Below, piece by piece: positions 28,791 through 39,071 of a stretch of DNA of 64,000 bases. Every line of letters starts with the position of its first letter. Positions within the stretch are counted from its first letter, which is position 1. The DNA is taken from contig NZ_SJPM01000004.1 in the NCBI RefSeq assembly GCF_007859915.1, forward strand, positions 1-64,000, read 5' to 3'. The stretch comes from Neorhodopirellula pilleata. Its GTDB lineage: Bacteria; Planctomycetota; Planctomycetia; Pirellulales; Pirellulaceae. Both the position numbers and the translations under genes were made by a program. Under the pieces are notes generated by a model. It saw only the letters and a list, made by a program, of their open reading frames with translations, searched no databases and was not told where the DNA came from.

Positions 28791-29073
28791 TGGTGACCTC
28801 GTAGCTGGTTTTCTCGACGAGTTTTTCCTTGCTGCGCACGGTAGCTTTGACAGGCAGCAAATATGATTTCGATTTGGTGTCGCGAAAGATTGACGTTTGC
28901 CAGCTCGTGTCGCCGACCGTAGCGGTCACTCGGATCGAGCCAAAGTTTCGTTTGCGGTGGGAGCAAAACCGTTCGAGATCCTCTGCATCCTCAACGGGAA
29001 GACTAACGAACCACCAAGATGACTCACCACCATACTTCCAAAGCTCTCCCGAGAAGCAGCAGCTAAAAATCAT
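28781..29073 (-). CDS. DUF1905 protein
   Basis: From the ATG at 29073 the protein is 97 residues and consists only of a DUF1905 beta-barrel (FSGELWKYGGESSWWFVSLP, then FGSIRVTATVGDTSWQTSIF, ending in YEVTITVE). The family is small and of unknown biochemical role, often fused to other domains but complete here. A 22-residue upstream extension to 29139 has no family match. Its 3' end overlaps the choloylglycine-hydrolase fragment by 10 bp on the opposite strand. Confidence 0.75.
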
Positions 29074-29704
29074 CGTGCGAAACCATTTGATTGCCGTATC
29101 TATGCAGAAACGCGAACCCGAAGAAGACTGTTTGACCATTAAGCCTCGTGCTGTGTGAACGAAGGTTCCAGGATACCAGAAGCTTGGTCTTGCGTTGACA
29201 AAATACGCTTTGGGGCAGGTCTAGGCACGCCGGGTTTCTGTGGACCAACCTCGCTTGCTACGCGGTTGGCGAATCGCATGAAATGAATCGCGATCCAAAA
29301 GTACCGCGAAGATATGGACGGTCCGGGAAATCACGGTGATTCGATAGAATCCATATCAATTCAGGCCTCCCTAACTCGACCGTGGTTGACAACGGCACAC
29401 TTTTAGCTTGTAATGTGCAAGTCACTGGCCGTTCCGACACTCGGAGTTGCTGCCATGTTTTTGTCGATCAGGTGGCCTGTTATTTCTGGTTGGTGTTTTT
29501 GTCACTGAAGCCATGCCGGTACGGCAATCATTTGCCGAGGAAAGCGAAGGCGTTTGACCGACGACATGAGCTGGAACGATCTTTCCCATGGCGGTTCAAA
29601 CTCGCAGGCCATCTTGAACTATTTGAGTGATTCGATTTTCAATGAATGTGGTTTTTGTCCATTGGCACGCAATGCCGCAATATCAATGCGACTCGCTTGC
29701 TCCA
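29074..29704. other. Gene-free stretch
   Basis: About 630 bases with only short, unconvincing frames on both strands. No homology I recognise, no long hairpin. It separates the debris zone from the repeat-rich island that begins at 29705. Confidence 0.4.
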
Positions 29705-29759
29705 TAGTGGCACGGTGGTCTCCACCGTGAATCACGACGGAGGACCGTCGTGCCACTAT
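29705..29759. repeat. REP/BIME element A
   Basis: Two back-to-back hairpins: TAGTGG then CACGGTGG-TCT-CCACCGTG, a short linker AAT, then CACGACGG-AGGA-CCGTCGTG and CCACTA. The second stem differs from the consensus (GGTGG to GACGG) at both arms, so pairing is preserved. It lies upstream of the kinase gene. Confidence 0.85.
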
Positions 29760-29790
29760 TCCTAACGCCAAAAGGTAAAGTGTCGATCAC

Positions 29791-31029
29791 GTGACCGCTG
29801 AAAAACGCAGTAATGAATTGCCAGAGACTATCGCCCCCGATCCGACAGCGGCCGGCGACGAAGCCAGCCTCATCCTGACCGGCACGGCCGGACTGACTTC
29901 GTTACCTACGGTCGGTCGATCGGGGAACCAGGTGACTCTGACGTCTCGCAATGAAGTACGCTATCGGAGCGAGAGCGTCTTGGGCCGCGGCGGAATGGGC
30001 GAAGTACGGCTTGCCAGTGACCAAGACATCGGTCGGCGCGTGGCGGTCAAACGCTTGCTTGACAAAAAAAATCCGCAGTCGGTAGCGCGTTTTATTGACG
30101 AGGTTCGCACGGTCGGCAAACTCGAGCATCCCAACATCGTCCCCATACACGATGTGGGCGTCGATGCCGACGGAAGTCTGTTCTTCGTGATGAAATATGT
30201 GGACGGAGAAACTCTCGCGTCGATCATCTCACGACTGCGCGAAGGGGACGGCGAGTATCACAAGCGATACAGTTTCGAGGCTCGCCTGGATCTCTTTTCA
30301 GGTTTGCTGAGGGCTCTTCAGTACGCTCACGAACAAGGCATGCTGCATCGGGACGTGAAGCCCGAGAACATCATGGTCGGCCATTTCGGCGAAGTCATGT
30401 TGACCGACTGGGGCATCGCTCGTCATGTCAATCACCGCCAAGGTAGCTCAGCAGATAACGACAAGCCAGCGGTTGAGATGCCGCGTGCATCGGGACAAAC
30501 GATCGATGGATCCATCATCGGCACGATCGGATACATGTCGCCCGAACAGGCCTCCGGGCATTCGGAAGAGATCGACGCGAGAAGTGACCTCTACGCAGCG
30601 TTTGTCGTTCTTTATGAACTCTTATCAACGCAAGCGTTCGCCCCACGCGGCGATTCGCTGTTGAAAGTGATCACTGACGCGAAGGAACGTCAAGCTCCAC
30701 AGTTCCTTGACCCGAATTTCGCCAGTCGCTACCAACCGGCGGTGCCAGCGGAACTTCGCCACTTTTTGCGTCGCGGCCTTCAACCCGCAAAGAAAGACCG
30801 CTTCCAAAGCGCGGGCAATGTGCTTCGCGATCTAGAACGTATCCGCTCGGGTGAGCCACCGATCCAGTGCGCCGGCACTTTTATCAAGGTTGCCAACGCT
30901 AGGCTCGAACGCTTGGTCGACAAACGCCCGATCCTCGCCATTAGTCTCTATGTGATGACGACCTGTCTATTCTTGATTGGGATCGTGACCACCTGCATGG
31001 TTATAGTGGCACGTTGGTCCCCAACGTGA
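29791..31029 (+). CDS. Membrane-anchored Ser/Thr protein kinase
   Basis: A 412-residue PknB-type kinase with a GTG start. The glycine loop is GRGGMGEV (65-72), the ATP lysine is in VAVKRLL (Lys-87), the catalytic loop is HRDVKPEN (Asp-188), and the metal motif is DWG (206-208) as in the larger kinase at 16080. The APE-like segment is GTIGYMSPEQASG. One C-terminal membrane helix (YVMTTCLFLIGIVTTCMVI) ends directly in sequence derived from REP element B, which supplies the last seven residues and the TGA. The sensory or extracytoplasmic part that usually follows the helix is therefore missing, and the gene may be 3'-truncated. Confidence 0.9.
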   Translation: MTAEKRSNELPETIAPDPTAAGDEASLILTGTAGLTSLPTVGRSGNQVTLTSRNEVRYRSESVLGRGGMGEVRLASDQDIGRRVAVKRLLDKKNPQSVARFIDEVRTVGKLEHPNIVPIHDVGVDADGSLFFVMKYVDGETLASIISRLREGDGEYHKRYSFEARLDLFSGLLRALQYAHEQGMLHRDVKPENIMVGHFGEVMLTDWGIARHVNHRQGSSADNDKPAVEMPRASGQTIDGSIIGTIGYMSPEQASGHSEEIDARSDLYAAFVVLYELLSTQAFAPRGDSLLKVITDAKERQAPQFLDPNFASRYQPAVPAELRHFLRRGLQPAKKDRFQSAGNVLRDLERIRSGEPPIQCAGTFIKVANARLERLVDKRPILAISLYVMTTCLFLIGIVTTCMVIVARWSPT

Positions 31030-31074
31030 TAGCTTAAATCGTCAAGCTCACCGTGGAGACCACGGTGCCACATT
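31004..31074. repeat. REP/BIME element B
   Basis: TAGTGG plus CACGTTGG-TCC-CCAACGTG, a linker of about 24 bases, then CACCGTGGAGACCACGGTG and CCACATT. The left stem carries GTTGG/CCAAC in place of GGTGG/CCACC, a compensated change. The kinase stop codon TGA is inside it. Confidence 0.85.
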
Positions 31075-31139
31075 AATCAGTCTCTATGTGATGACGGCTA
31101 TTCTATTCTTGACTGGGATCGTGACCACCTGCATGGTTA

Positions 31140-31210
31140 TAGTGGCACGTTGGTCCCCAACGTGATAGCTTAAATCGTCAAGCTCACCGTGGAGACCACA
31201 GTGCCACTTT
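31140..31210. repeat. REP/BIME element C
   Basis: Copy of element B made by the 136-bp duplication, 13 bases upstream of the transposase start codon. The right arm has one mismatch (CACAGTG for CACGGTG). Being this close to the start, its hairpin could hide the transposase ribosome-binding site (GGAGCG). Confidence 0.85.
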
Positions 31211-31222
31211 AAGGAGCGAAAC

Positions 31223-31873
31223 GTGATCTGGAATGTCTTTGATCGTGAAGCCGAGTCAAGAATCACCGCTCGCAATCTACCACACGTCGATCAGCCCAAC
31301 GCACTAACCTTCGTGACGATGCGGCTCGGCGATTCGATGCCCCGCAACGTTATCGCGAAGTGGCATCAAGAGGTTGAAGCTTGGCTTCGGCAACACAAGC
31401 TTGACAATAGGTCGGTCGATGAGGTGATGCGGTGTGAATCGGTTGACATGAATTTGAAAAATGAACTGCGACAGTTTCATCAGCGAAAGTGGCATGGTCA
31501 CCTGGATGATTGTCATGGGGAGTGTTGGCTTCGGCGACCAGAACTGGCTGACGAGGTTGGCCGGTCCATTTTGCACTTCAATGCAGATCGGTATGACGTC
31601 GAACGATTCGTTGTCATGCCAAATCATGTTCATGTGCTGATCCAGATGCGAAGCGGTTTTGACCTGCGAAAGACCTTTCGCGAGATCCAACGCTTTTCAG
31701 CGCGATTGATCAACAAGATACTCGAACGCGAAGGCCAGCTTTGGCAGGGTGAGCCTTTCGATCATGTCGTGCGAAGCGAAAACCAATTTGGCTACCTTCA
31801 AGGTTACATCCGCGACAATCCCAAGAAGGCAAACCTTCGTGAAGGGGAGTTCCTCCTTTGGGAATGTGAATAG
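31223..31873 (+). CDS. REP-associated tyrosine transposase (RAYT, Y1/HUH type)
   Basis: Single-strand DNA transposase-fold protein, 216 residues. The HUH motif is in VVMPNHVHVLIQ (His-135, His-137) and the nucleophilic Tyr is in GYLQGYIRDNPKKA (Tyr-195 the likely one). The N-terminus has an ALTFVTMRL strand, and there is an insertion with several His/Cys (KWHGHLDDCHGECW, 90-102). RAYTs nick single-stranded REP hairpins guided by a short 5' tetranucleotide; here elements C and D stand directly on both sides and the stop codon TAG is the first three bases of D. No terminal inverted repeats of a classic IS are present. The start GTG lies after GGAGCGAAAC. Confidence 0.9.
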   Translation: MIWNVFDREAESRITARNLPHVDQPNALTFVTMRLGDSMPRNVIAKWHQEVEAWLRQHKLDNRSVDEVMRCESVDMNLKNELRQFHQRKWHGHLDDCHGECWLRRPELADEVGRSILHFNADRYDVERFVVMPNHVHVLIQMRSGFDLRKTFREIQRFSARLINKILEREGQLWQGEPFDHVVRSENQFGYLQGYIRDNPKKANLREGEFLLWECE

Positions 31874-31932
31874 TGGCACGTTGGTCCCCAACGTGATGCT
31901 TGACTCACGGCGGGGACCGCCGTGCCACTATA
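31871..31932. repeat. REP/BIME element D
   Basis: TAGTGG plus CACGTTGG-TCC-CCAACGTG, linker ATGCTTGACT, then CACGGCGG-GGA-CCGCCGTG and CCACTA. It supplies the transposase stop and fills the convergent junction with the SDR gene, whose stop is only 3 bp further on. Confidence 0.88.
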
Positions 31933-31934
31933 GC

Positions 31935-32741
31935 TCACGCGATGTCCAGCGATTTCTTCAGTTGACTCCGAAACATTTTCGAAGGCATCACGGCACCTAG
32001 AAATCCAATCAGCTTCGAAAAACCGTCGGCGCGAATGACAGGATTCATCGTGCGAGCTTCGATCGCGTCCGCAACAGTCTTTCCAATGGCTTTTGGTTCC
32101 GGACCTTTTTGCTGCATGCGATGGAAAGCGGCGATGGCCCGATCGCGCGGACCGTCGTACACGGCGACAGGCTCGGCGGCTCGACGGAAACTTGCTTCGG
32201 CACCGGTTTTCACGCCACCGTTTTGCAAGTACGAAACCTGGATATCCAATGGCTCGACTTCATACCGCAGCCCATCGCAATAGATTTGCAGAGCGGCTTT
32301 GCTGCACGAGTAAATTGCATGGTAGGGCAATGCCGCGTCACCGGCATTGGAACTCATGTATAGCAGTCGGCCTGCACCGGCTTCTCGGAAGTGTGGCAGC
32401 AAAACTCGCGTGACACGATGAGCACCGACGAAATAGGCATCGAGCTGCTGGTGTATCTGTTCCGGCGTCGTCTCTTCAATCGCCCCCGCCGTATAGAAAC
32501 CTGCAGCGTAGAACATCGCATCGATTCGTTGTTCGTTGTCCAGAATCTTGCGAACCGCCTCCTGTATGGAATGATCGTCGTTGATTTCCAGGTCCAAGCC
32601 GACAACGTTGGAAATGGTCACCCGCGAGGCATCACGGCTGGTTCCATAGACTCGGTGACCCCGCCCGGCCAATGCTTCTGCGGCAGCTTTCCCAATTCCC
32701 GACGAAGCACCAACGACCAAACAGACTTTGCGATTCTTCAT
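31935..32741 (-). CDS. SDR-family NAD(P)-dependent oxidoreductase
   Basis: A classical short-chain dehydrogenase of 268 residues. The cofactor motif is VVGASSGIGKAAAE at the N-terminus; the catalytic residues are Ser in LLYMSSNAG and YSCSK (Tyr/Lys). The TSRD after the second strand suggests NADP use. The substrate cannot be read. The gene runs alone between REP elements D (3' side) and E (5' side) and ends 3 bp from D. Confidence 0.92.
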   Translation of the reverse strand: MKNRKVCLVVGASSGIGKAAAEALAGRGHRVYGTSRDASRVTISNVVGLDLEINDDHSIQEAVRKILDNEQRIDAMFYAAGFYTAGAIEETTPEQIHQQLDAYFVGAHRVTRVLLPHFREAGAGRLLYMSSNAGDAALPYHAIYSCSKAALQIYCDGLRYEVEPLDIQVSYLQNGGVKTGAEASFRRAAEPVAVYDGPRDRAIAAFHRMQQKGPEPKAIGKTVADAIEARTMNPVIRADGFSKLIGFLGAVMPSKMFRSQLKKSLDIA

Positions 32742-32880
32742 TCGAAGTAGGTTCCTATTTCTAATTCTCGACGGTTGGGTAGTCAGATCTCGCTACGATA
32801 CAGCATACGCAGATAGCTTGCAAAGTGCAACATACGAGGCAGTGTCGACTTCAGTGTTTTTGTACAGCGCCGTGTTAAAA

Positions 32881-32943
32881 TAGTGGCACGTTGGTCCCCA
32901 ACGTAATTCGTGATTCACGGTGGAGGACCACCGTGCCACTATT
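32881..32943. repeat. REP/BIME element E
   Basis: TAGTGG plus CACGTTGG-TCC-CCAACGT, linker, then CACGGTGG-AGGA-CCACCGTG and CCACTA. It lies upstream of the SDR gene and upstream of the fragment at 33043. Confidence 0.88.
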
Positions 32944-33042
32944 AGACCCGCAATCAGGCATCTCCGACATTGCGTCCGAGAGGCAATCCGTGGTAGCTTG
33001 CACTGTGAAAGCGAATGCTCCAGAATCACGAGAGAACGAAAA

Positions 33043-33411
33043 ATGGAAAAGGTAGGCGATGTGACGTCACACACGAATGACCGATCGATCCCGCTGGCAG
33101 GCGAGAGCAGGACGGCACTGAGGACCTGGCCAGCGATCGGCCTGTTGTCACTGATGATGATCGCGAAAGGCTTGCCATGGTTGTTTTCGGAGCCTCCGCA
33201 GTCCGTCCAAGTCGCCAGTCTCTTGGGACCTGCCGCCGCCGCTTTGTTTTTGATCGTTTGGTGGCTCTTTGCCAGCCGTGCGGGCAGAAAGGAGAAAGTT
33301 GGTGGTCTGCTTGGCCTGGGCGTCGTCGCGGGTCTAACTTTCTTGCTACTTCATCCGACGATGCGGGTGTTCGAGCTTCCGGTCACTTCACCAGTAGTCG
33401 ACTCTTTTTGA
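33043..33411 (+). pseudogene. N-terminal fragment of a membrane-anchored PQQ/beta-propeller protein
   Basis: From the ATG at 33043 come 122 residues with three hydrophobic segments: WPAIGLLSLMMIAKGLPWLF, AAAALFLIVWWLFASR and LGLGVVAGLTFLLLHPTM. This order (short cytoplasmic start, LRTWPA, three helices, LLHP) is what I recall from the membrane domain before the propeller in planctomycete PQQ-like repeat proteins. The frame ends where the propeller should begin. The end meets the broken adaptor gene and a hairpin at 33425, so a deletion probably joined the two. Confidence 0.5.
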
Positions 33412-34236
33412 ACGGGAGATGAATCGGCGTCTTGGAGAGACGCCGTTATGGTTCTTTACGCCCACTTTGACTCGCACGGTGCCGTTGGTCGGGTCGATCT
33501 TGGGCGACATCTCGCGAATAAAACCGACTGCTTTGATGGGCGGGGCCGACTGCAACGATAGGTCGATGTTGTTCTTTTCCGGCGGTCCGGGAGGGAACGC
33601 GTCCAAGACCACGTCCCGTTCACCATCCACGGCAATCGTGTAAACCGGAGCGCCGGCGACGACGACTTGCCCCGCCTCGGCCTGCCTCGTCGTAACCACG
33701 CCCGCGACGGTTGCCCGTAGGTCGGTGTAGGAAAGTTGCAACTCTGCTAACTCAAGGCCGCCATTGGCGATCAGCAGACTCGCTTTTGCCGATAATACTT
33801 CGGCCATCGCACCGTCGAATTCTTACTTGGACGCCGCCATGCGGGGAAGCAACTGCTAGATTCGTTTGAAATTCGCGTTGCGTTCCTCAAACTCGGCCTG
33901 GGCCGACCGCACCGATGCTTTCGCCGCATCGACATCGGCCGTTTGCTGGATGGAATCGATTCTCGCCAACAGATCACCCACGACAACGTGTTGACCGACT
34001 TCGGCGATGTGGTACTCGATCCGGCCGCCCGTACGAAACGACATGTCGCTTTCAACACTCGCCCTAAACTCGCCGGTCAACGATTTGGTCACCGGACAAG
34101 AAGCGATCCTGGCGACCTGAACACGAACGCCCAGCGGCGGCAGCTCTGGTGACTTCAATCGCGATTCGCATCCCAGTATTGTTGCAAAGGTCAGAACCAA
34201 TAGAGTCGTTAGCCCTTGGAATTTGCCTCGATTCAT
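33388..34236 (-). pseudogene. HlyD/MFP-family efflux adaptor with two in-frame stops and a lost 3' end
   Basis: All parts lie in one minus-strand frame: lipoprotein signal (TFATILGC), first lipoyl half (FRASVESDMSFRTGGRIEYH), start of the helical hairpin, then TAG after FKRI and TAA after MAASK (33829-33858), and then the second half with DLRATVAGVVTTRQAEAGQVV and the barrel. The C-terminus ends in the hairpin sequence at 33425-33445 instead of the usual membrane-proximal domain. Both stops sit in the hairpin region and are one base from sense codons. No RND partner gene survives here. The alternative start is at 34296. Confidence 0.8.
33425..33445. repeat. Perfect hairpin at the joint of two gene fragments
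   Basis: CGGCGTCT (33425-33432), loop TGGAG, AGACGCCG (33438-33445). It marks the point where the PQQ-protein fragment (plus) and the broken adaptor gene (minus) meet. It may be a terminator or a third small palindromic repeat. Confidence 0.6.
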
Positions 34237-34328
34237 GCCAAGATGGAGGATTACGGGCTGCATCATTTTGATCGTTGCTCGTTGCAAGTTATCCATGAAT
34301 GGCCGCAGGAAACTGGGCCGTGTTCGTT

Positions 34329-34754
34329 ATGAAAAACGACCTTCGTTCCGATTGCCCGATCGCCGCATCTCTAGATGTGATTGGTGACCGTTGGACGTTG
34401 GTTGTTCTTCGAGATCTTTTGCTGATGCAGAAGGTTGCTTTTTCGGAGATTGGGGTACAGGAAGGCATCGCGACCAACATCCTGATGAATCGGTTGGAAC
34501 GACTGACCGAGGCCGGCATCATCGAGTGCTACGCTCACCCGACCGACGGCCGCCGGCGGATCTACTTGCCGACTCAGCGTGGCATTGAGCTCATTCCGGT
34601 TTTGGTCGATCTGGTGGTCTGGGGTACCGATCACACAGCGGCTCAAGGCGTCAGAAAAATCGCCAAGGCGATCAAGCAAGATCGCGAAGGGATGATCAAG
34701 AACATCGAAGCAAAGGCGGCAGCGAGTCGTGCCGCCAATATGCCCAAGGCCTAA
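34329..34754 (+). CDS. HxlR-family transcriptional regulator
   Basis: A winged-helix regulator of 141 residues starting at the ATG of MKNDLRSDCPIAASLDVIGDRW. It has the HxlR signature: a single N-terminal Cys (CPIAASLDVIGDRWTLVVLRDLL), recognition helix GIATNILMNRLERL and wing HPTDGRRRIYLP. Some members sense aldehydes or quinones through this Cys. It is divergent from the broken adaptor gene, which it probably once regulated, and is a paralogue of the regulator at 36325. Its stop is two bases from REP element F. Confidence 0.92.
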   Translation: MKNDLRSDCPIAASLDVIGDRWTLVVLRDLLLMQKVAFSEIGVQEGIATNILMNRLERLTEAGIIECYAHPTDGRRRIYLPTQRGIELIPVLVDLVVWGTDHTAAQGVRKIAKAIKQDREGMIKNIEAKAAASRAANMPKA

Positions 34755-34755
34755 A

Positions 34756-34915
34756 TAGTGGCACGGTGGTCCTCCACCGTGAGTCTTCACTGTGAGTCTT
34801 CACTGTGAGTCTTCACCGTGAGTCTTCACCGTGAGTCTTCACCGTGAGTCTTCACCGTGAGTCTTCACCGTGAGTCTTCACTGTGCATCACGGCGGAGGA
34901 CCGCCGTGCCACTAT
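34756..34915. repeat. REP/BIME element F with 13-bp internal expansion
   Basis: Normal left hairpin CACGGTGGTCCTCCACCGTG and right hairpin CACGGCGG-AGGA-CCGCCGTG. Between them the linker GAGTCTTCAC(C/T)GT is repeated eight times at exact 13-bp spacing (starts 34781, 34794, 34807, 34820, 34833, 34846, 34859, 34872). It lies in a convergent junction and supplies the C-terminal codons of the membrane protein gene. Confidence 0.92.
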
Positions 34916-35399
34916 ATCCGCGAAGATGATTGATCAGTCGGTAGGTGATGTAAATCTGCGTCAGCAGGACGAGCGGTACGTAGTACTGGATCACGATCCA
35001 CATTCCGCCGAGGTACGACTCGAATACACCGGCTTTCAAGCCCGTTGGGATCGCAATCGCAAAGTCAACTCCGCCGACGACTACAAACACGGCAACCAAC
35101 GGAGTTGCCATCTTCGACTTGGCAGCAACCGCGATCGCAGCAGCCAGTGCGGTAACGGCGGCTGCCAGATCGCCGAACGCCATAAGCTGAATTGAACTTC
35201 GGGGAAGTTCAGGATCAATCTGTCCATTTACCAGCATTGTCAGTCCGACGAAGCGGAACGAATGGACAAGCAGTCCCGGCAAGACCGCTGGGCCAAATGG
35301 CTGCGCAGCGAACCAAGGCCGTAAGTACGTAACGTAGATGACTAGAATGGCAGTGAGGCACATCACTGCTTGGATGTTCAAAATGATGAGGCTGTTCAT
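34878..35399 (-). CDS. Small integral membrane protein of unknown function
   Basis: 173 residues with about five hydrophobic helices (IQAVMCLTAILVIYVTYL, VHSFRFVGLTMLVNG, LAAAVTALAAAIAVAA, MATPLVAVFVVVGGVDFAIAI, WIVIQYYVPLVLLTQIYI). No motif I recognise beyond that. The last residues (GYSGTAVLRRDAQ) are translated from REP element F, so the original C-terminus has been replaced or slightly extended by the repeat. It lies between elements F and G. Confidence 0.7.
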   Translation of the reverse strand: MNSLIILNIQAVMCLTAILVIYVTYLRPWFAAQPFGPAVLPGLLVHSFRFVGLTMLVNGQIDPELPRSSIQLMAFGDLAAAVTALAAAIAVAAKSKMATPLVAVFVVVGGVDFAIAIPTGLKAGVFESYLGGMWIVIQYYVPLVLLTQIYITYRLINHLRGYSGTAVLRRDAQ

Positions 35400-35440
35400 G
35401 CGTTGGTTATTTCAGGAGTTAGAGTGCCGAGATTGATGAA

Positions 35441-35506
35441 TAGTGGCACGGTGGTCCCCACCGTGAATCTGGACTCGGGATCACGGCGGAGACCGCCGTG
35501 CCACTT
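35441..35506. repeat. REP/BIME element G
   Basis: TAGTGG plus CACGGTGG-TCC-CCACCGTG, a linker of about 13 bases, then CACGGCGG-AGA-CCGCCGTG and CCACT. Read on the minus strand it supplies the end of the SDR gene (KVARRSPP and stop). Confidence 0.88.
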
Positions 35507-36242
35507 TGAAGCTCTTGTTGAGTTGCCCATAGATGAATCCTGGAGCGAGTCGGCTGAGCCATCTCAGTTGCGCTGACTGACCAGGCGCGATCTCGTCACG
35601 CCCTCGCTTAAGACCGCTGATGAGAGCCGCCACAAGTTTCTCGGGCGGCATTTTTGAAAACGAGTGGTCGAGAGTTGCCGCCAGCGGCGTATCGACGACG
35701 GGAGGCAGCAACTCGACCACTCGTACCGATGTCCCAGCAAGCTGTGTCCTCAAACACTGCGTGTATGAATGAAGGAACGCCTTGCACCCGCAGTAGACAG
35801 GTGCCGCCGCGAAGGGGACGTAAGCCAAGCCCGAGCTGACATTGACGATGATCGAAGGGCGTTTGAGTAACCCCGGAAGGAAGTGATGCACTAAACGTAC
35901 TGGGCCGGCGGCATCAATCGCGATCTCGGCGAGCTGCTTTTCCAAGGGATGGCCCTGAGTAACGTCGAAGAAGTCCATCACCCCCGCATTGTTGATTAGA
36001 ACGTCGGTACCACCGCGTCCGTCCATGAAATCGCGAAGCGCGACAACTTGCTCGTCGTTGGTGACGTCGCAAACGAATGGAGTAACGCGAGTCATTCCAG
36101 ATGCCGCTTGATCGAGCGTCGATTGATTCCGTCCCGTGATCACCACGTCGGCCCCAGTTTCTCCGAACTTTTTGGCCATCTGAAGACCGATTCCAGAACT
36201 GCCACCCGTGATGACGATACTTTTCTCGTTGATTTTCATCAT
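35481..36242 (-). CDS. SDR-family oxidoreductase, DltE-like
   Basis: A 253-residue short-chain dehydrogenase. The motifs are VITGGSSGIGLQMAKKFGE, NNAGVMDF, Ser in IIVNVSSGLAYVPF, and YCGCK (Tyr/Lys) followed by AFLHSYTQCLR, a pattern of the DltE/YkvO type. The C-terminus is closed by codons from REP element G. It is divergent from the HxlR gene at 36325 with an 82-bp gap, an arrangement typical for an SDR controlled by its HxlR neighbour. Confidence 0.92.
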   Translation of the reverse strand: MMKINEKSIVITGGSSGIGLQMAKKFGETGADVVITGRNQSTLDQAASGMTRVTPFVCDVTNDEQVVALRDFMDGRGGTDVLINNAGVMDFFDVTQGHPLEKQLAEIAIDAAGPVRLVHHFLPGLLKRPSIIVNVSSGLAYVPFAAAPVYCGCKAFLHSYTQCLRTQLAGTSVRVVELLPPVVDTPLAATLDHSFSKMPPEKLVAALISGLKRGRDEIAPGQSAQLRWLSRLAPGFIYGQLNKSFKVARRSPP

Positions 36243-36324
36243 GCAATGCTCTCCTCATGGGAAAATATGCTAACTTTTAATTCACAAGCTATCGTAGCCG
36301 CTTGCTCTTTGCAAGGTACATACC

Positions 36325-36747
36325 GTGTCTCCGAATGAAAATCGATCAGATTGTCCAGTGGCAAATGCGCTCGACTTACTCGGTGACCGCTGGACGCTGC
36401 TGATCGTCCGCGACATCGTATTGGGTCAACGTTTCGCTTACACCGAGATCGGGGCCGACGAAGGAATCGCGACCAACGTGCTTTCCAATCGACTCGAAAG
36501 ACTGGTATGCGCCGAAGTCATCGAGCAATTCCAGCACCCTACAGACAAACGAAGACGAGCTTACCTTCCCACGGAAAAGGGCATTTCGTTGGTTCGCGTA
36601 TTGGTCGAGTTGTTGGTTTGGGGCGACGCGCACACTTCAGCCACTAGTGGAGCCGAATTTGCGGCGGCCATCCGTAAGGATCGAGAAACGATGATTGCGC
36701 ACCTAGAAGCCAAAGCACGTCAGAGTGTCGAAGATTTTCACGAATAG
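36325..36747 (+). CDS. HxlR-family transcriptional regulator
   Basis: 140 residues, a close paralogue of the regulator at 34329. It has the N-terminal Cys in DCPVANALDLLGDRWTLLIVRDIV, the recognition helix GIATNVLSNRLERLV and the wing HPTDKRRRAYLP. The start MSPNENRSD looks native. It probably controls the divergent SDR gene. The stop TAG is directly followed by REP element H. Confidence 0.93.
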   Translation: MSPNENRSDCPVANALDLLGDRWTLLIVRDIVLGQRFAYTEIGADEGIATNVLSNRLERLVCAEVIEQFQHPTDKRRRAYLPTEKGISLVRVLVELLVWGDAHTSATSGAEFAAAIRKDRETMIAHLEAKARQSVEDFHE

Positions 36748-36748
36748 A

Positions 36749-36817
36749 TAGTGGCACGGTGGTCCTCCACCGTGAATCAGGGCTCGAAATCACGGTGGAG
36801 GACCACCGTGCCACTAT
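36749..36817. repeat. REP/BIME element H
   Basis: The most symmetric copy: TAGTGG, CACGGTGG-TCCT-CCACCGTG, linker of about 17 bases, CACGGTGG-AGGA-CCACCGTG, CCACTA. It lies in the convergent junction between the HxlR gene and the second isochorismatase-fold gene. Confidence 0.9.
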
Positions 36818-36847
36818 CCCCAAATACCCGCCAACGCCCTATGTTCA

Positions 36848-37462
36848 CTATCGACGCGTGAGTTTTTTGAATTGCTGGAAGCTCAAAATAGATTGAGCAT
36901 AGCGCGACAACGTGCTTCTAGCGTATTCGGAGATCTCTCCGACGTCTTCGCTTATCGCTTCTTGGATGAGCGTCACGTGATAGCCCAGTTGGACGCCATC
37001 CCTGACGCTTGAGTCGATCGAGATGCGAGCCAGCGGACCGGCGATGATTAGATGTTCGATTCCTCGCCTTTGAAGCTGTTCATGTAGGTCCGTGCCCTTG
37101 AACGCGCTGAGCGTGCTGCGTGCTGAAAGCACCAGATCATCAGGGCCAGGCGACAACTTGTCGGGGATGCCGTCACGGCCATCAACCGGTTTCACAGCCT
37201 CTTTAAGCAGCCGATGGGCGCGGGTCTCGAACGTATGCTCTGCCGCGGCGTCGAACTTGCTGTAGACAACGCTAAAATCGGATCGTCGCGCCAACGCGAC
37301 TAGATCCAGAAGCGACGACATCAATCGGCTGGAGTCGGGCACGAGCCCCTTCTGCGCATCGACCAGCAAGACCGCCGTCTGGCGCGCCGGATAGGTTCGA
37401 TAAGGGCGGAAACGTCGGTGCAACCACCAACGGGTAATGATACCGATTGTCTCAGGAATCAT
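36848..37462 (-). CDS. Isochorismatase-fold protein lacking the catalytic Cys
   Basis: A cysteine-hydrolase fold of about 204 residues from the ATG at 37462. The catalytic Asp region is kept (VLLVDAQKGLVP), but the segment that should hold the nucleophile (cis-peptide then Cys, as in MATNSCIEATAR of the partner) reads PLARISIDSSVRDG, with Ser where Cys belongs. The N-terminus has an extra basic helix (TRWWLHRRFRPYRTY). The start overlaps the upstream homologue by 11 bp, so the two are translated together. It is probably inactive as a hydrolase or a regulatory partner subunit. Confidence 0.85.
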   Translation of the reverse strand: MIPETIGIITRWWLHRRFRPYRTYPARQTAVLLVDAQKGLVPDSSRLMSSLLDLVALARRSDFSVVYSKFDAAAEHTFETRAHRLLKEAVKPVDGRDGIPDKLSPGPDDLVLSARSTLSAFKGTDLHEQLQRRGIEHLIIAGPLARISIDSSVRDGVQLGYHVTLIQEAISEDVGEISEYARSTLSRYAQSILSFQQFKKLTRR

Positions 37463-38093
37463 GGGTGACCTTTTCGGATTGCAGTGCATTGACCAGTTGA
37501 TTGGTGTCCAGCACAGCGTGAGCGATCTGCGGATAAATTTCAGCGACCGTCGAATGGTGTTCCTTACGCGAGAACGTGGCCACGGCGTCGGTCACCAGCG
37601 TGACGTGATAGCCCAGGTCCACTGCGCTTCTGGCAGTTGCCTCGATGCAGGAATTGGTGGCCATTCCCACAAGGATCAGGTGAGTGATTCCGAGTTTCTG
37701 GAGTTGATCGTGCAGGTCGGTTTCCGCAAAGCCGCTCGAACAGGTGTGTTCACTGGCGACGATGTCGCCCTCCTGTGGTTCGAGCCCTTTGTAGTACTGG
37801 CCGCCAAAGCCATCACGCGGGAATGCTTTGAAAGCAGTTTGTAGCGCCTGCGAAGGGTGCAAATATTTCTTGTCTGAGAAACTGCCCGGCTGCCATCGAT
37901 GATGGGGTGCGTAGGCAACCTGTAAACCGACGGATCTCGCCGAATCGAGTATCTTTCTGAGATTGGGCAGAAGATGCATTTCCTTGATCGTCGCACCAAC
38001 ACTGCTCCACATTTTCCCCCACCGCGAAAGAAATTCGTTGAAGGGGTCGACGACGATCAACGCCGTGCGATTTTTTTCGTCTATCTGCATCAC
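37452..38093 (-). CDS. Isochorismatase-family cysteine hydrolase
   Basis: 213 residues. The catalytic Asp is in LIVVDPFNEF (Asp-16) and the nucleophile is in GMATNSCIEATARSAVDLGYHV (Cys-149, shown in part). The usual Lys position is in ASEHTCSSGFAETDL, as in a known subgroup of amidohydrolase-like members. The likely reaction is hydrolysis of a small amide or enol ether; the substrate is unknown. It is the first gene of a pair whose second member has lost the Cys. REP element I lies upstream. Confidence 0.9.
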   Translation of the reverse strand: MMQIDEKNRTALIVVDPFNEFLSRWGKMWSSVGATIKEMHLLPNLRKILDSARSVGLQVAYAPHHRWQPGSFSDKKYLHPSQALQTAFKAFPRDGFGGQYYKGLEPQEGDIVASEHTCSSGFAETDLHDQLQKLGITHLILVGMATNSCIEATARSAVDLGYHVTLVTDAVATFSRKEHHSTVAEIYPQIAHAVLDTNQLVNALQSEKVTHDS

Positions 38094-38119
38094 TGGTTCC
38101 TCTGGTTGGCTCTTAACAA

Positions 38120-38184
38120 AGTGGCACGGTGGTCCCCACCGTGAGCCTGCGGTCTAAAACACGGTGGGGACCACCGTGCCACTA
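38120..38184. repeat. REP/BIME element I
   Basis: AAGTGG plus CACGGTGG-TCC-CCACCGTG, linker, then CACGGTGG-GGA-CCACCGTG and CCACTA. The last copy of the cluster. It separates the isochorismatase pair from the epimerase fragment and overlaps the stop region of that fragment. Confidence 0.9.
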
Positions 38185-38490
38185 TTTCTTCGCGACTACA
38201 ATTCCTGCGTCAATTAATTGCTGGAACATTTCTGTCATCGTGTCAGCGAGTGGTCGGTACACGATCCCCAGTTCCTTGATGCTTTTGCTCGCATCGACCT
38301 TGACCGAGTGATTGACGTTTCGAGAGACGTATTTCCGTGTGATCGTCTTGTCAATGATCGGCCCGGCCAACCAAGCGGCAAATTTCGGTAGGATACGTTT
38401 CGGAAACGGATAGGCGTCCCCATCTCTTGCAAGGAAGTAGCGTACATGTTGTCCGCCTTTGAGAGTATTTGAAAATGAATGACCTGAGGC
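38182..38490 (-). pseudogene. C-terminal fragment of an NAD-dependent epimerase/reductase
   Basis: The minus frame is open from a TAA at 38491 and encodes GGQHVRYFLARDGDAYPFPK, then a KRILPKFAAWLAGPIIDK stretch, then VDASKSIKELGIVYRPLADTM. This is the C-terminal end of the extended SDR (dihydroflavonol-reductase-like) family, including the typical VDASKSIKELGIVY. The Rossmann and catalytic parts are absent. No start codon is supported. Confidence 0.7.
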
Positions 38491-38858
38491 TTAAGCTATG
38501 CTGACCGGGTTGCCCCGCCAATCTCGCTTCCTCCCGAAAAATTGCATTGCCTGTCCCAAAATTCTTCGGATTGCACATAGATTGCACATTGCAAGCTACA
38601 GGAATGCCTTGCAGAGTGCAAGGGAGGTTTTTCGTCGAATTCTTGCTTCATTCCGACCGCCCAACAGCTGAATCGCTAGATCTGCTAAGCAACCCAAAGG
38701 CGATCGTCACTGTCGGTCAAACGGTACTCGGTCAACGATTTAGCCACGGTTTTGCGGTTGCGGAGCCAGCGGAGCATGGCTTCGCAATCGAAGTTCTTGG
38801 GCCGACGGCGAGTGACGTTGGCGAGGTTGACCCCAGACGCAACGCTCCCTGGGTGAAG
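38491..38858. other. Stretch without a recognisable gene
   Basis: A 122-codon plus-strand frame (38547-38915) has no recognisable motif and overlaps the csrA remnant. On the minus strand a short frame (about 38690-38840) encodes RRPKNFDCEAMLRWLRNRK and a basic tail that look protein-like but match no family I know. Probably debris. Confidence 0.35.
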
Positions 38859-39071
38859 CTACTTTGGGCGAATGCACATGGCTTCCACTGGATCGCTATC
38901 GGGCTCTGTGTCTAACAACTCGCTTCGCCGAATCGCCACGTCGATGGGAGCGTCGATGGCGATCTGGACGCGGACTCCGGAGATGCGAATCACCTTGATC
39001 CATACCTCGTTATGATTGTCTGATACGACGACGCTCTCACCAAGTCTTCGAGATAGTACTCGCGATCGTTG
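38859..39071 (-). pseudogene. csrA: csrA-like remnant without a start codon
   Basis: The minus frame encodes VLSRRLGESVVV, a short variable loop, then VWIKVIRISGVRVQIAIDAP and IDVAIRRSELL, ending at TAG 38859. This is almost the entire CsrA/RsmA RNA-binding fold (consensus MLVLSRKxGE...V.I.G.RVRIGI.AP..V.I.R.E). The frame is intact, but the codons before VLS read CGA TCG CGA, with no ATG, GTG or TTG back to a stop, so the start has been lost or recombined. It has not been reported as a gene because no start exists. Confidence 0.75.

Follow-up and report, generated by a model that had tools for sequence, protein, structure and literature searches.

A RAYT transposase gene among nine inverted hairpin pairs in Neorhodopirellula pilleata, and a hairpin tag whose third letter varies among relatives

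Our analysis of the window, a stretch of 64,000 nucleotides from the planctomycete Neorhodopirellula pilleata, indicates that a cluster of nine paired hairpins at 29705-38184 is best read as a REPtron, that is, as one gene for a RAYT (REP-associated tyrosine transposase, or TnpA_REP) together with its cognate inverted pairs of repetitive extragenic palindromes (REPs), of the kind known as bacterial interspersed mosaic elements (BIMEs) or REPINs (REP doublets forming hairpins). Judging from sequence, we give this reading a probability of about 0.85. The first-pass annotation of this DNA had proposed a planctomycete REP system with its own active transposase, and it was right in kind, the best named matches to the RAYT family being from Pirellulaceae, though it overstated the case in the word "active". 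A planctomycete REP system is in itself not new, having already been reported from Rhodopirellula baltica (PMC3733652). The more interesting part lies outside the cluster, and concerns the tetranucleotide in front of each hairpin, whose third letter changes between lineages.

Each element consists of GTGG and a hairpin, a spacer of 3 (element A) to 107 (element F) bases, and then the reverse copy. All nine lie within 8.5 kb at the positions first assigned to them, apart from a slight ambiguity in the start of the ninth, and both halves of every one could be extracted, giving 18 hairpins. GTGGCAC is invariant in 18 of 18 halves, with GTGG directly 5' of the stem, and 17 of the 18 hairpins have a perfect stem of 7-8 bp with a loop of 3-4 bases, the one mismatch falling in the right half of the third element (C). 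Where TAGTGG or CCACTA had been described at each half, only the GTGG holds throughout; TA precedes it in 14 of the 18. All the halves thereby carry the GT[AG]G foot, 0-2 nt before the hairpin, by which REPtrons are recognised. The sequence GTGGCACGNTGG occurs nine times in the window, every time at one of the nine elements, and TAGTGGCACG occurs eight times. No further copies of the hairpin elements were found in the rest of the window, and there is no Rfam match at the gathering score in 29000-39000. The genes between the elements lie on both strands, which speaks against an integron cassette array, although no integrase search was made.

The stems also covary. Among 12 distinct rows, 99.0% of the cells pair and three pairs change on both sides; there are 9 double-change cells, against 2.1 in shuffles and 0 in all slid versions. 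The variable part is the middle of the stem, where variation tends to hit both sides. The paired changes that had earlier been taken as compensatory are thus clear as covariation, but they are weak evidence for selection on folding, since they could likewise arise if one arm were copied from the other.

The RAYT gene sits between the third and fourth elements, as the first-pass annotation had it, and elements C and D adjoin its two ends, so that the inverted hairpin pairs stand on both sides of it. The open reading frame (ORF) is intact, with the catalytic residues H135 and H137 (HVH, 135-137) and Y195, the latter in YIRDNP. Its W174, Q175, D180, H181 and R184 fall at the positions of W94, Q95, E100, H101 and R104 of E. 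coli TnpA_REP, and these residues (E/D at 100) have been discussed for guide recognition (PMC6006769). Residue 19, to which we return below, is the Leu of N-L-P-H. The protein scores 31 bits against the Pfam family Y1_Tnp, where the cut-off is 23, with the HUH motif and the catalytic Tyr both present; its only sensible match in the PDB, E. coli TnpA_REP (4er8), is weak (E 0.01). AlphaFold on the RAYT alone gave a mean pLDDT of 48, and the model was not used. A scan of genome contigs returned no match with the single RAYT protein as query and 80 loci with an alignment. The window RAYT probably acts on the neighbouring hairpins.

This genome twice shows a single RAYT tied to a single hairpin family. 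The next closest protein is 29% identical to the window RAYT, which is therefore a single gene of its kind, and a second RAYT at this identity, at C5:110921-111514 (L008 and L033), has hairpins of its own on its flanks, with the form GTGG-TGGCGACTTTCAGTCGCCA. This second hairpin family has 95 strict copies in the genome; among the 66 own-genome rows listed, we counted 64 tagged with GTGG and 2 with GTAG. A relative of the second RAYT in another genome (L062, in G055) has flanking hairpins that share the stem of the second family and are tagged with GTAG.

The window family itself is dispersed. Searched against the 8.5-Mb assembly, a covariance model of the 18 halves gave at least 93 hits with an E value of 1 or less, of which the cluster accounts for 18; the total is a lower bound because only 150 of 8496 first-look candidates were scored. 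A strict hairpin pattern finds 75 copies in the genome, and its reversed-pattern control finds 0. The claim that no copy exists elsewhere in the window was therefore right; the genome, however, holds many more. We had considered a local confinement of the family, with 14 of 17 genome hits of our first pattern in the window cluster, and rejected it, because that pattern demanded TA before GTGG and because the covariance model and the borders of the distant copies show a dispersed family. In 73 of 81 distant halves it is AC or TC that precedes GTGG, in place of the TA usual in the cluster. Among 40 distant hairpin places that we read individually, there are 22 cases in which a longer element with common arms surrounds the hairpin pair; both arm ends were found by pattern in 14 of the 40, six of them 130-131 bp long with TAGTGC...GCACTA. 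The 131-bp form resembles a miniature inverted-repeat transposable element (MITE) and has the ends TAGTGCTTC...GAAGCACTA. BLAST with one full copy of it gave 48 matches in the genome, of which we counted 18 covering at least 120 of the 131 bases. Many of the distant copies thus ride on a longer element, and it is around the RAYT that plain pairs reach their highest density. Examples of the MITE-like element with a REP pair as its core are L078:152-282 and, for a second class, L076 and L092 (all in this genome, G000); at L071, L087 and L104 the element contains several tandem copies of the REP unit. Such nesting would offer a possible second route for REPs to spread without a RAYT of their own.

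In relatives the same hairpin recurs, mostly with another foot. Strict copies with GTGG and with GTAG number 75 and 0 in this genome, 1 and 23 in G004, 4 and 12 in G005, 0 and 14 in G007, 8 and 14 in G011, 1 and 1 in G010, and 0 and 1 in G002, and the remaining 53 of the 60 genomes have neither. In this set, the RAYTs closest to that of the window are those of G011 (60% identical) and G005 (56%); both genomes, as just listed, also hold the hairpin, and both RAYTs are flanked by GTAG hairpins.

Is GTGG then the guide? The first-pass annotation had suggested it as the equivalent of the conserved tetranucleotide of proteobacterial REPs, and comparison across the order supports this. Out of 134 gathered RAYT loci, 17 were dropped for lack of an ORF passing the HUH..Y filter. 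Perfect hairpins within 600 bp of the 117 RAYT genes occur at 3.97 per kb, against 0.54 per kb farther off or inside ORFs and 0.16 after mononucleotide shuffling. When the 4-mers 5' of perfect hairpins were counted with no motif assumed, GTAG (187) and GTCG (177) came out highest. In the flanks of the 117 genes, GTNG stands before 412 hairpins (GTAG 178, GTCG 170, GTGG 43, GTTG 21), with the loop TCC in 295 of the 412. Facing hairpins share their tag in 85 of 86 pairs, a figure that comes from 76 loci picked for one dominant tag, a choice that favours agreement; tags are not always pure, some loci (e.g. L188, L113 and L137) having mixed ones. A fresh set of 80 loci, of which 7 had no ORF by the filter and 31 repeated earlier proteins, left 42 new proteins, 22 with a callable tag. 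With both middle bases left free, these 42 gave GTGG 24, GTAG 24, GTCG 21 and GTTG 14, the next G..G word reaching 6. Since GTNG words lead in the flank counts, G1, T2 and G4 are kept while base 3 varies. GTTG is near background in the first set (22, against a mean of 17.3 per 4-mer), and what persuades us to count it is the fresh set alone, in which L252, L269 and L281 carry 4-5 copies apiece; the L269 and L281 proteins are near-identical. With the GTNG frame kept, its third base varying between relatives and equivalents of the guide-recognition residues present in the protein, the sequences support GTGG as the guide of the window system.

The guide and its reader, as far as sequence comparison can tell, seem to change together. 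A quick tree of the 118 RAYTs with a called guide (from a first set of 118 ORFs, 76 with a confident tag and 20 more with a looser tag for which the loop was restricted to TYY, and the fresh 22) requires at least 22 guide changes, where shuffled tags require 51 on average. The clade of the window RAYT, eight proteins with an SH-aLRT value of 98, by itself holds four GTCG, two GTAG, one GTTG and one GTGG. Among proteins that have a residue there, residue 19 is Arg or Lys in 49 of 51 with GTCG, 0 of 47 with GTAG (one of which has Ser, counted as not Arg/Lys), 2 of 14 with GTGG and 0 of 5 with GTTG. This column was picked from the 76 proteins, with one computation on 68 of these, as the one most informative on the tag (0.95); the next two columns follow close behind (0.93 and 0.91), reflecting shared ancestry. 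The looser 20 proteins have Arg/Lys19 in 8 of 10 with GTCG and in 0 of 9 others with a residue there, and the fresh 22 in 8 of 8 with GTCG and in 0 of 13 others. We put forward, tentatively and at odds clearly below even, a joint proposal: that the guide of planctomycete RAYTs is GTNG, with base 3 a one-letter address that has been switched many times and is read partly by residue 19 (Arg or Lys for C, mostly Leu or Met otherwise), so that these would be domesticated single-strand transposases with a naturally reprogrammable guide. A role in reading the guide for the Arg that follows YI, judged by eye only, was set aside.

The link between residue 19 and the guide might instead be one of shared ancestry only, with the third base drifting unread by the protein; this is a serious objection, which we rate at nearly even odds. 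Most GTCG proteins do fall in one large clade, and there are exceptions to the rule, namely GTCG with Leu19 in L121 and L183 and GTGG with Arg19 in L122 and L206. Five supported independent pairs of guide switches could be formed, in which residue 19 went the same way in 2.5 on average and showed no difference in 2.5; a sign test on them is not significant and, with only five pairs, could not be. Yet no pair went the opposite way, and L127 has Arg19 with GTCG within a mostly GTAG group. The stronger argument comes from the group of the window RAYT. Its GTCG proteins L110 and L111 have Arg19, and the residue is Leu or Met in nine GTAG or GTGG relatives; full separation is seen at only two columns, 19 and 114, of which column 19 is above 90% in the large GTCG clade and column 114 at 75%. 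The fresh proteins, given above, likewise argue for a reader over mere descent.

How might the REPtron work? For proteobacterial systems it has been reported that the RAYT binds the folded single strand, and that the cleaved dinucleotide is one with which bases of the guide pair. This is CT for GTAG and, in one enzyme, CC or CA for GTGG; a hand-made change from GTAG to GTGG let one RAYT cleave at CC (PMC8266576). From this analogy we infer binding, nicking, mobility and the cleavage site in the window system. In an exposed single strand each half would form a hairpin of 8 bp closed by a TCC-type loop, the RAYT would grip the hairpin and its GTGG foot, and the HUH/Tyr195 site would nick at a dinucleotide set by pairing with the last guide bases, expected to be CC or CA as for TnpA_Mb. 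Strand transfer would then move or rearrange the pair, mostly close by. At the opposite end, a dinucleotide matching the guide would come from the reverse complement of the latter, which reads CCAC in the window system and CTAC or CGAC in others. With this inverted arrangement, the system would stay consistent if both halves changed their guide; as a further part of the tentative GTNG proposal, a switch on both hairpins would automatically supply the matching cleavage dinucleotide on the inverted partner.

Several results weigh against the REPtron reading. A guide-matched dinucleotide at a fixed offset found no support as a general rule: at GTAG loci CT stays at or below 0.12 at every offset examined, and at the seven GTGG loci CC stays at or below 0.19, while at GTCG loci CG reaches 0.54 at 3' offset 3, which is suggestive only. 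The RAYT scores 59.4 bits against NCBIfam NF047646 (REP-associated tyrosine transposase), under the cut-off of 80, so that it is not filed under that equivalog, though clearly related. The expectation that the hairpins should go with the transposase family, raised in the first-pass annotation, holds only in part: the congeners G004 and G007 have the hairpins with closest RAYTs only 43% and 46% identical, and G033, from another genus, has 40 weaker hits of the hairpin model and no RAYT match at E 1e-10. Orphan REPs left after RAYT loss have been described for E. coli strains (PMC3733652), and orphan hairpins in congeners therefore do not break the link to the RAYT. Finally, 48 of the 93 halves lie in or within 60 bp of the MITE-like matches and 27 elsewhere; as those elements have other ends, the RAYT need not have spread them. 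Several of the 27 carry the arms of the second MITE-like class, and at least 10 have, by eye, neither arm set (six at C3 343.9-347.0 kb, two at C5 112.5 kb and two at C13 111.4 kb).

These numbers, with the armed elements described above and with a second hairpin family that itself lies inside a longer element with inverted ends at two of three distant loci, could mean that the hairpin pairs are MITE cores moved in trans by a classical transposase, the RAYT being incidental to their spread. We consider this improbable. The nine cluster pairs lack MITE arms, with the partial exception of element A (which matches query positions 42-122 at 80%), and are bordered by TA instead of AC or TC; tagged hairpins flank RAYT genes throughout the relatives; and when the 131-bp element was searched by BLAST in 12 congeners, six matched the hairpin core only and none the arms. 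No transposon with such ends was identified, though no dedicated search was made. It is also conceivable that the system is a relic or has been adapted by the host, with the pairs retained for a role in chromosome structure or at RNA ends and no longer mobilised by the RAYT. The elements occupy intergenic gaps or the edges of such gaps, several of them directly following a stop codon; congeners hold orphan hairpins; and dated movement could not be shown, the window region having no DNA match at E 1e-10 in the 12 congeners that could offer an empty site for inspection. Still, we think this unlikely, if less so than the MITE alternative, for the RAYT is intact with all its key residues, and the homogeneity of the guide in this genome (75 versus 0) is more easily explained by recent turnover than by decay.

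The REPtron reading places the window system beside several known ones. Like the REPtrons of Proteobacteria (E. coli Ec, S. maltophilia Sm and Marinomonas Mb; PMC8266576), it has a single RAYT gene, flanking inverted REP pairs and a tetranucleotide foot; the Sm REPs likewise have an 8-bp perfect stem and a 3-base loop, and there both loop and foot matter for cleavage. Unlike them, it has the guide GTGG, with GTAG, GTCG or GTTG in relatives, a TCC loop and many distant copies inside MITE-like elements. Di Nocera et al. (2013, PMC3733652) described several REP families, RAYTs and TIRYTs of R. baltica, which belongs to the same bacterial group, and of others; many tyrosine transposase genes there have flanking repeats, and long inverted repeats surround some transposase genes. 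The protein resembles subclass 2.7 of TnpA_Y1 (Quentin et al. 2018, PMC6006769) in NHVH, WQ and YIR.NP and in length (216 versus 213 aa), and the REPs of that subclass are GT[AG]G; it departs by one position from the tabulated motifs [ND]HVH, WQ and YI[LR][NQ]NP, having Asp (YIRDNP) where the table gives N or Q. With IS200/IS605 it shares HUH/Y1 chemistry and a guide 5' of the hairpin (PMC6006769), though the window gene, with no other protein above 29% identity in the genome, is not a multi-copy insertion sequence with left and right ends.

RAYTs and REPs with a GTAG or GTGG foot are thus known, Planctomycetes included (PMC3733652, PMC2817692, PMC6006769). What goes beyond this GT[AG]G, judged from the flanking hairpins, is a third guide letter that varies (A, C, G, T) within the clade of the window RAYT. 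The text of PMC3733652, figures and supplements apart, has GTAG and CGTC tags and neither a GTCG series nor a link to a residue; GTCG has 0 occurrences in the main text of PMC6006769, whose automatic REP search required GTAG or GTGG, so that GTCG or GTTG feet would be missed. A literature search for GTCG with repetitive extragenic palindromes and a transposase found no paper, and searches on Rhodopirellula with REP-associated tyrosine transposase, or with miniature inverted elements, found nothing. Priority for GTCG is not proven, as figures and supplements lay outside this literature check. The natural guide variants address the question of how RAYTs choose their cleavage sites and how REPs diversify: the change from GTAG to GTGG once made by hand, along with changes to C and T, appears to have arisen repeatedly among natural systems, which also offer a candidate for the residue that reads the guide; the guide rule could thus be tested with natural sets of enzyme and substrate.

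Table 1. Coordinates in the window of the RAYT gene and the nine hairpin elements.
Feature	Position	Strand	Remarks
RAYT (TnpA_REP-like) HUH/Y1 transposase	31223..31873	+	216 aa, GTG start
Element A	29705..29758		Inverted pair of GTGG-tagged hairpins, 3-base spacer
Element B	31004..31073		
Element C	31140..31209		Ends 13 bp before RAYT start codon; within the second copy of the 136-bp tandem duplication shared with B
Element D	31871..31930		First three bases (TAG) are the RAYT stop codon
Element E	32881..32941		
Element F	34756..34914		107-base spacer filled by a 13-bp repeat
Element G	35441..35506		
Element H	36749..36816		
Element I	38119..38184		Start at 38119-38121

The surroundings of the elements show some features of their own. 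The spacer of element F is widened by a run of the 13-bp repeat (GTGAGTCTTCACC) at 34775-34888. The 136-bp tandem duplication that contains elements B and C occupies 30940-31211, its copies being 94% identical; the first copy includes part of the 3' end of an ORF for a Ser/Thr kinase, whose stop lies within element B. Among the elements, at 31935-38093, there are two SDR genes, two HxlR regulators and two isochorismatase-like ORFs, the second of the latter (36848-37489) assigned by eye only, as if modules had been duplicated. An RND efflux adaptor at 33388-34296 on the minus strand is split over two ORFs and is apparently a broken gene. In one relative (L066, in G058), a RAYT-like ORF of 460 aa has low-complexity peptide repeats ahead of its motifs and between them, which bring to mind in-frame insertion of REPs.

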